A model generated the notes under the pieces. That model made no database searches. It saw only the letters and a list, made by a program, of their open reading frames with translations, and was not told the DNA's origin. The translations under genes were made by a program, and so were the position numbers. Below are positions 31,492-32,721 of a stretch of DNA of 36,690 bases, in pieces. Source of the DNA: Methanocalculaceae archaeon (GTDB lineage: Archaea; Halobacteriota; Methanomicrobia; Methanomicrobiales; Methanocorpusculaceae); NCBI GenBank assembly GCA_031262705.1, contig JAISHD010000074.1, positions 1 through 36,690 of the forward strand, read 5' to 3'. Position 1 is the stretch's first letter, and each line of letters opens with the position of its first letter.

Positions 31492-32721
31492 TTACTGTTT
31501 CATCGTGACGACGGTAATACCTGCATCTTTGAGTGCGGCCTTTAACATCACATCCTGAATGGATCCAAGCTGCGGGTCAGCAATGACAACATTGTCGCCT
31601 GCCGCACTGCGGTCGCTGATCCACTGCACGAAGCCGGCCCAGTCGTTTGCCGGAGAGTTCATGCTTGCAACAAGTCCGGAGCCTTCAAGCTGGATCGGAG
31701 CAAGGATCTTTAAGGTAATTGAGCCCGTGTTCTTATCGATTGCACTGATGTACGGAGGGGTTCCGGCAACAGCGTACTGAATAGTATTCTGCGAGAGCAG
31801 GGTCATCAGCTGCGGTCCACCGGATCCTTCAACGAACCTGACATCAGCGATCTTTTCACCGTTGATGAACAGTTCCGCTTCGGAAACCTTTCCTGCCTTG
31901 TCAATGGTTGGTTTGAGGTAGGAGTTATAGGTGTCCTTGAAGTACTGCCAGTCTTTCAGCAGAACAAACAGCGGGGCGTCATGATCGCTCGGGAGGTAGC
32001 CGATCGAGATCGGATTTGATATCGGGGCAGGAGTGGTAAGCTTGCCTGCTGCAATCTGTGCGGTTGCCGCCTCGTACGGGCCGAAGTCGTAGAGCAGATC
32101 CTTGGACTCCTCTGCGGAAGTGGAAGCGAGTTTTCCAGTGATCAAATTCAGTTCACGCTGGGACTTTATGAACTCCTCGTTGCTCGCAAGCCATGCATCC
32201 GTGACTTTACTTGAGAACATGATCGTCGGAATCGAGGCATTCATGGCGTCAACGGAATTGACCGTGATGTTGCCGTAAACCATGTCCTGTTTGGAGAACA
32301 GCCAGTCGGCGGTAAATTCTGCGGATTTTTCGGGATAGTCGTTGATGTACTTGTCACCGAGGATTGCCAAGGCAACAACGCTGGTCGTGAGATCGGTATT
32401 CTTCAGTGCTTCGGAGTTTGCACCAATGGCACAGCAGGTGTGCTGTTCCCACATTCCTACCGGCGGGAGGTCCTGACTGTAGGATACTACCTTTCCGACA
32501 TCTCCTTCAACACCGACAGCAACGAACGGCTGCCAGATGATGTATCCGTCAATTTTTCCGGTTGCAAGAAGTCCCGGCATGGTTCCGGCTCCAGTGTAGA
32601 GAATCTCTACAGTCGGAGTTTTGTCAGTGTTTGCCGGTTCGGAAATGCACCCGGCAGCAAAAATCATTGCGACACACACGACAAGAAGACCTGCAACTGC
32701 GAGCAGATGCTTTTTGTGCAT
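31492..32721 (-). CDS. ABC-type substrate-binding lipoprotein (NMT1/SsuA type) with swapped halves
   Basis: Exported lipoprotein of 409 residues: lipobox-type signal peptide (KKHLLAVAGLLVVCVAMIFAAGC, Cys at about 24), then a nitrate/sulfonate/taurine-type binding domain. The order is unusual. The part that is normally the second half (GAGTMPGLLATGKIDGYIIWQPFVA, then HTCCAIGANSEALKN) comes first; the part that is normally first (IGYLPSDHDAPLFVLL, GGPQLMTLL, VAGTPPYISAI, VIADPQLGSIQDVMLKAAL) comes last, joined by a short TTPAPISNP linker. The ATG at 32721 is about 27 bases from a TATA (TTAAATAC), so the message is nearly leaderless; the frame is open to 32886. No permease or ATPase gene lies nearby. 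Confidence 0.85.
   Translation of the reverse strand: MHKKHLLAVAGLLVVCVAMIFAAGCISEPANTDKTPTVEILYTGAGTMPGLLATGKIDGYIIWQPFVAVGVEGDVGKVVSYSQDLPPVGMWEQHTCCAIGANSEALKNTDLTTSVVALAILGDKYINDYPEKSAEFTADWLFSKQDMVYGNITVNSVDAMNASIPTIMFSSKVTDAWLASNEEFIKSQRELNLITGKLASTSAEESKDLLYDFGPYEAATAQIAAGKLTTPAPISNPISIGYLPSDHDAPLFVLLKDWQYFKDTYNSYLKPTIDKAGKVSEAELFINGEKIADVRFVEGSGGPQLMTLLSQNTIQYAVAGTPPYISAIDKNTGSITLKILAPIQLEGSGLVASMNSPANDWAGFVQWISDRSAAGDNVVIADPQLGSIQDVMLKAALKDAGITVVTMKQ

Follow-up and report, generated by a model that had tools for sequence, protein, structure and literature searches.

Among binding proteins, natural circular permutation has mostly been recognized in structural pairs that are distantly related, and no permuted SsuA was described for methanogens in the open-licence papers that we searched. 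One of the closest described systems, the SsuABC transporter of Methanosarcina acetivorans, has been called a coenzyme M (CoM)-specific ABC transporter and is induced on CoM starvation (PMC12068725). Here we analyze a gene in a 36,690-nucleotide stretch of DNA (the window) from a Methanocalculaceae archaeon (GCA_031262705.1, contig JAISHD010000074.1), the product of which carries the two halves of an SsuA-like protein in exchanged order. Our overall explanation, drawn from sequence comparison and held with a probability of roughly 0.7, is that the gene encodes a working, permuted SsuA-type substrate-binding protein (SBP) of an importer of the SsuABC/TauABC kind, which would take up CoM or a related sulfonate.

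Under this explanation, the gene product would be the substrate-binding lipoprotein of such an ABC importer. Its chain would start in lobe II, at about profile position 166-167 (a region uninterrupted in unpermuted relatives), proceed to the old C-terminus, cross a short linker and continue through lobe I from the old N-terminus. Permuted and normal forms would share a two-lobed clamp fold that holds a common ligand between its lobes, presumably CoM or a close sulfonate, and would pass it on to a cognate permease. In the clade of the window, where the SBP gene is separated from the permease-ATPase pair, the protein would serve that pair in trans.

Arrangement of the binding protein

The features of the gene are listed below, with reference to the Pfam profile NMT1_2 (PF13379), to an alignment (A1) and to a profile HMM built from 29 unpermuted relatives only (A3).

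31492..32721 (including the stop codon), minus strand: permuted substrate-binding lipoprotein, 409 amino acids, ATG start; supported by profiles and by homologues over the full length in 32 of the 33 genomes of the family
32647..32721, minus strand: lipoprotein-type signal peptide, residues 1-25, with lipobox AAGC at 22-25; read from the sequence, GC conserved in A1
32059..32628, minus strand: first half, residues 32-221, with the HTCC motif; corresponds to the C-terminal region of normal-order SsuA-type proteins (A3 166-333, NMT1_2 154-240)
32023..32058, minus strand: linker, residues 222-233, connecting the ancestral C- and N-termini; between both profile matches and variable in A1
31513..32022, minus strand: second half, residues 234-403; corresponds to the N-terminal region of normal-order SsuA-type proteins (A3 34-167, NMT1_2 6-150)
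within 31513..32022, minus strand: second-half motifs GYLPSDHDAP, GTPP, GSGL and GSIQD
31495..31512, minus strand: new C-terminal tail, residues 404-409, beyond the last profile match; in unpermuted relatives, profile positions 402-405 lead directly into 35-36

The initial annotation had described an intact frame with a signal peptide, followed by second-lobe motifs and ending in first-lobe motifs. The 409-residue open frame and its lipoprotein-type signal are confirmed, all the motifs it named are found in the order given, and the swapped profile matches bear out their assignment to the two lobes. The AAGC lipobox is conserved and preceded by a hydrophobic stretch, as is required of the binding protein of an SBP-dependent ABC importer.

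The NMT1_2 profile matches the protein twice and in swapped order, positions 8-176 of the second half aligning to profile positions 6-150 and positions 4-95 of the first half to 154-240. When the protein is rotated, the match becomes one stretch (profile 6-240) and its score rises from 56.9 to 68.3 bits, both above the gathering cut-off of 24.7 bits. The NCBIfam model SsuA_fam likewise goes from 30.1 bits in the native order to 40.1 bits after rotation, below its cut-off of 163.5 bits either way, whereas the normal-order relative L069 scores 171.3 bits; whole-protein models such as this one miss the permuted SBP. With A3, residues 32-221 of the native protein match positions 166-333 (59.4 bits) and residues 234-403 match positions 34-167 (50.5 bits), while the protein rotated at residue 223 yields a single uninterrupted match of 118.6 bits. 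A rotation scan in steps of four residues peaks at cuts 223-235, at about 118 bits, and declines smoothly on either side. TauA (PDB 6ssy) is also matched out of order by the permuted profile, positions 275-352 aligning to chain residues 12-91 and positions 36-132 to residues 128-219. In normal-order relatives, a permuted-profile match ending at 400-405 runs almost directly into a match starting at 33-38, which is the junction predicted by a circular permutation.

The linear order of SsuA/TauA-type proteins (start of lobe I, lobe II, return) is absent from the window protein, its halves being swapped; judged by its sequence, the protein is of the SsuA/TauA type (NMT1_2) by homology and not a member by topology. 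The circular permutation proposed in the initial annotation is backed by four independent profile comparisons (NMT1_2, SsuA_fam, A3 and TauA) and by conservation in independent assemblies, and on these grounds the protein is almost certainly a circularly permuted SsuA/NMT1-type binding protein. A structure prediction from an alignment of 4 close sequences only gave a pLDDT of 33.9.

It is exceedingly improbable that the swapped order reflects an assembly or annotation error, or that the halves are separate, unrelated domains. The genome of the window is a draft of 84 contigs, 79% complete, but full-length permuted homologues occur in 32 of the 33 genomes of the family, among them the single-contig genomes G013 and G031, and the isolate Methanocorpusculum petauri has the same order at 93% identity; moreover, rotation brings both halves into a match with one continuous profile. 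An assembly join inside the gene, which had been named as one outcome that would speak against the permutation, is therefore excluded.

Spread and origin of the permuted form

In 393 genomes of the phylum, many of them draft assemblies, a profile search and subsequent domain analysis of the loci it yielded returned three arrangements: the normal one, that of the window, and a different cut in one protein (L111, in genome G266). The window's arrangement occurs in its own taxonomic order (about 100 of 232 genomes), in genome G369 and, outside that order, in a second clade of the phylum (family codes f9, f26, f28, f31 and f36), so that the search of related genomes suggested in the initial annotation recovered the same order well beyond the family. 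Plasmid and viral collections searched for relatives yielded none. The permuted form is old and widespread.

On the SBP tree the window's arrangement needs two changes, and none of the 200 bootstrap trees examined unites the two permuted clades, which favours independent permutations with the same cut in Methanomicrobiales and in other orders of the phylum. We consider this history the less probable one: the AU test does not reject a single permuted clade (p = 0.137), the permeases of both clades fall on one side of a branch (SH-aLRT 76), and the cut site is the same within profile resolution. A single origin of both permuted clades is possible. A permuted SBP of the type found in the window's order also lies within a CoM biosynthesis cluster in a genome that belongs to a different family of the phylum (L102; G369:C58), for which horizontal transfer or a mis-binned contig may account.

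The remaining arrangement, L111 (L111:6371-7456; G266:C93:10370-11452), is a second, different circular permutation in the same family, with the lobe I block at the C-terminus. Its blocks are 70% and 84% identical to those of L113, the normal orthologue of a sister genome. The five residues just ahead of the moved lobe I block in L111, SGTPK, align with the lipoprotein linker TGTPG of L113, and L111 also has a signal and linker at its own start; such a linker remnant is what a tandem duplication would leave behind once the outer parts are lost. Of the four genomes of this family, one has the permutation and its three sisters have normal-order orthologues; the operon is intact. The permutation appears to be recent and needs confirmation. 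Two adjacent full-length permuted SBP genes precede one permease-ATPase pair at L059:6070-8642 (G028:C61) and in G010:C65. Because of the linker relic in L111 and of such tandem permuted copies in other genomes, tandem duplication with loss of the outer parts, the route suggested in the initial annotation, is by analogy a plausible one for the window gene.

The transporter locus

The permuted and normal forms occupy a conserved locus, gatE-gatD-argH-HTH regulator / SBP-permease-ATPase-rpl10e-fumA-korA-korB, in which the names gatE, gatD, argH, rpl10e, fumA, korA and korB were read from the sequences of the neighbours and are not database matches. Among the 232 genomes of the order, 100 carry the permuted form, 117 the normal one, none both and 15 (mostly incomplete) neither; these classes were assigned by hand from search tables, include partial genes at contig ends and leave the distant permuted paralogue group uncounted. 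The permuted SBP thus occupies the locus of the CoM-type SBP, with shared neighbours, and excludes the normal form (0 of 217 genomes with both), the SBP of the window's clade having left that locus. Since the genomes are related, a Fisher p for these counts would not be a fair probability, and a better argument is the alternation of normal and permuted SBPs at the locus within three genera (g40, L218 versus L216 and L217; g30, L220 versus L219; g34, L223 versus L222 and L224).

The tree of the HTH regulator is unclustered by SBP form (6 changes, against a shuffled mean of 6.5), and that of the permease splits completely by it. At the Methanomicrobiales synteny loci, permease identity to that of L041 is 60-65% beside a permuted SBP and 36-39% beside a normal one; for the ATPases, identity is 60-66% with either form. 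The flanking regulator follows the species, and SBP and permease swap as a pair; we infer that the locus stays in place and that its SBP and permease are replaced together as matched partners. A broader proposal, that permuted and unpermuted CoM-binding proteins are interchangeable alleles, repeatedly swapped with matching permeases at one address beside a vertically inherited regulator, is put forward tentatively, at somewhat less than even odds.

A divergent HTH_3 gene beside the SBP (L041:7607-8245, L112:5829-6371, L103:8203-8673 and L215) adjoins permuted, normal and third-topology loci, as well as the M. acetivorans ssu genes, and is likely the regulator of the transporter. Three normal-order SBP genes (G192:C1:1419087-1420121, G165:C7:250751-251773 and G203:C53:55150-56145) are each interrupted by one in-frame stop and are perhaps decaying copies. 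A further normal-order SBP, L182:1193-3601 (G412:C158), is fused to a long C-terminal extension that contains Thr/Pro-rich repeats, for a total of 802 amino acids.

The initial annotation had noted that no transporter genes are adjacent to the window gene, which is true locally; a permease and an ATPase do exist on another contig of the same genome (G000:C38:45116-46653), and the check for these partners that it had called for thereby found them. They are 79% and 81% identical, respectively, to the pair beside the SBP in the sister species G013. In most relatives SBP, permease, ATPase and the ribosomal protein L10e-like gene stand in a row; in the window's clade the SBP stands alone, and the permease-ATPase pair has kept the L10e-like gene as its neighbour at another site. 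G013 retains all four genes in one place, which puts the break between SBP and permease. A complete loss of these partners is rejected, and with a cognate permease and ATPase in the genome, the window protein is very probably a component of a working importer. The absence of transporter genes beside the SBP throughout the window's clade might instead suggest that it has left the importer, as a stand-alone receptor or a decaying gene; this is improbable, given that the frame is open, that clade members share 76-93% identity and that the permease and ATPase have been kept as a pair in every genome of the clade that was searched.

Ligand and comparison with known systems

Genome G536, which we take to be Methanosarcina acetivorans, encodes a normal-order SBP at 73719-74720 and a permease at 72783-73571. 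These coordinates fit the ssuC and ssuA genes of M. acetivorans, for which deletions in ssuC (72928-73101) and across ssuB-ssuC-ssuA (72032-74051) have been described (PMC10750270), and the normal-order protein is therefore M. acetivorans SsuA. Two permuted relatives, L102 and L110, are located inside CoM biosynthesis operons. In L102, ComA-like, ComB-like and ComDE-like frames (named from their sequences and from clustering with the ComDE of L110) are followed on one strand by SBP, permease and ATPase; the CoM cluster of L110 contains a cysteate synthase (TIGR03844) and a sulfopyruvate decarboxylase alpha subunit above the curated cut-offs, with the beta subunit slightly below. In the same cluster, L110:5950-6828 (G356:C3) encodes a normal-order SBP homologue of 292 amino acids without a signal peptide, which overlaps the ComDE stop and is followed by the permuted SBP; its product may bind a sulfonate in the cytoplasm.

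By locus and operon association, the ligand is probably CoM (2-mercaptoethanesulfonate) or a related sulfonate. Eleven family genomes keep the permuted SBP without a sulfopyruvate decarboxylase or cysteate synthase above cut-off, and in the order 48 of the 49 genomes that are at least 90% complete and have no sulfopyruvate decarboxylase carry the permuted or the normal form; as nearly all genomes carry one form of the transporter, its presence in apparent auxotrophs amounts to consistency and not to contrast. The genome of the window encodes sulfopyruvate decarboxylase and cysteate synthase (C80:6193-7898), so CoM import is not obligatory there, and CoM auxotrophy of this species is unsupported.

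A permuted SBP of the same importer type could bind taurine, another alkanesulfonate, a nitrate- or bicarbonate-like anion or a thiamine precursor, and the relatives found by profile in the PDB do include TauA, SsuA, nitrate and bicarbonate binders and THI5-like proteins. There are, furthermore, permuted paralogues of a second group (about 30% identity), which coexist with the normal form in some genomes, for example G207 and G119, and one shared ligand for all permuted proteins is not required. Such a different ligand is nonetheless rather unlikely in view of the exclusive replacement of a protein of the M. acetivorans SsuA type at one locus, under the same regulator, and of the CoM biosynthesis operons around L102 and L110. 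CoM or a related sulfonate remains our preferred reading. The second group itself (L050, L052, L053, L055, L064, L065, L072 and L073), which shows that level of identity to the window protein, has its own permease and ATPase and in some genomes occurs together with a normal-order SsuA.

If the ligand is CoM, about half of the sampled Methanomicrobiales would import this methanogenesis cofactor by way of a permuted protein, and the inhibitor analogue bromoethanesulfonate would probably be imported as well. Sister species have permuted or normal forms of one family at a shared locus, and the permease changes along with the SBP; this exchange amounts to a natural experiment that asks whether delivery to the permease depends on the order of the chain and on where it is anchored.

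CPSARST has likewise linked the folds of glycine-betaine-binding and molybdate-binding proteins through a circular permutation (PMC2395249), but that is a structure comparison of distant families with less than 24% identity and different ligands, neither of the SsuA type. TpMglB-2 (Tp0684) of Treponema pallidum, designated 'Type Ic' (PMC4990184), is also a natural circular permutant and a lipid-tethered ABC binding protein, and it has kept its ligand binding; it differs in having a Type I sugar-binding fold permuted within the N lobe, whereas the window protein matches type II SsuA/TauA-family profiles, and for it no locus has been described at which permuted and unpermuted forms replace each other. 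TauA and SsuA of Escherichia coli (PDB 6ssy and 2x26) belong to the same type II family, and TauA aligns with each half of the permuted profile, but in these proteins the halves stand in the opposite order. SsuA of M. acetivorans (PMC12068725, PMC10750270) has its halves in the normal order, about 28% identity to the window protein after rotation and a permease of a distinct clade; it nevertheless shares with the window protein the TIGR01728/NMT1_2 superfamily, the set of SBP, permease and ATPase, the motifs H-x-CC, GTPP/GSAP, GS(G/D)LV and G(S/T)IQD once the latter is rotated, and a homologous divergent HTH regulator, which adjoins the gene in relatives.
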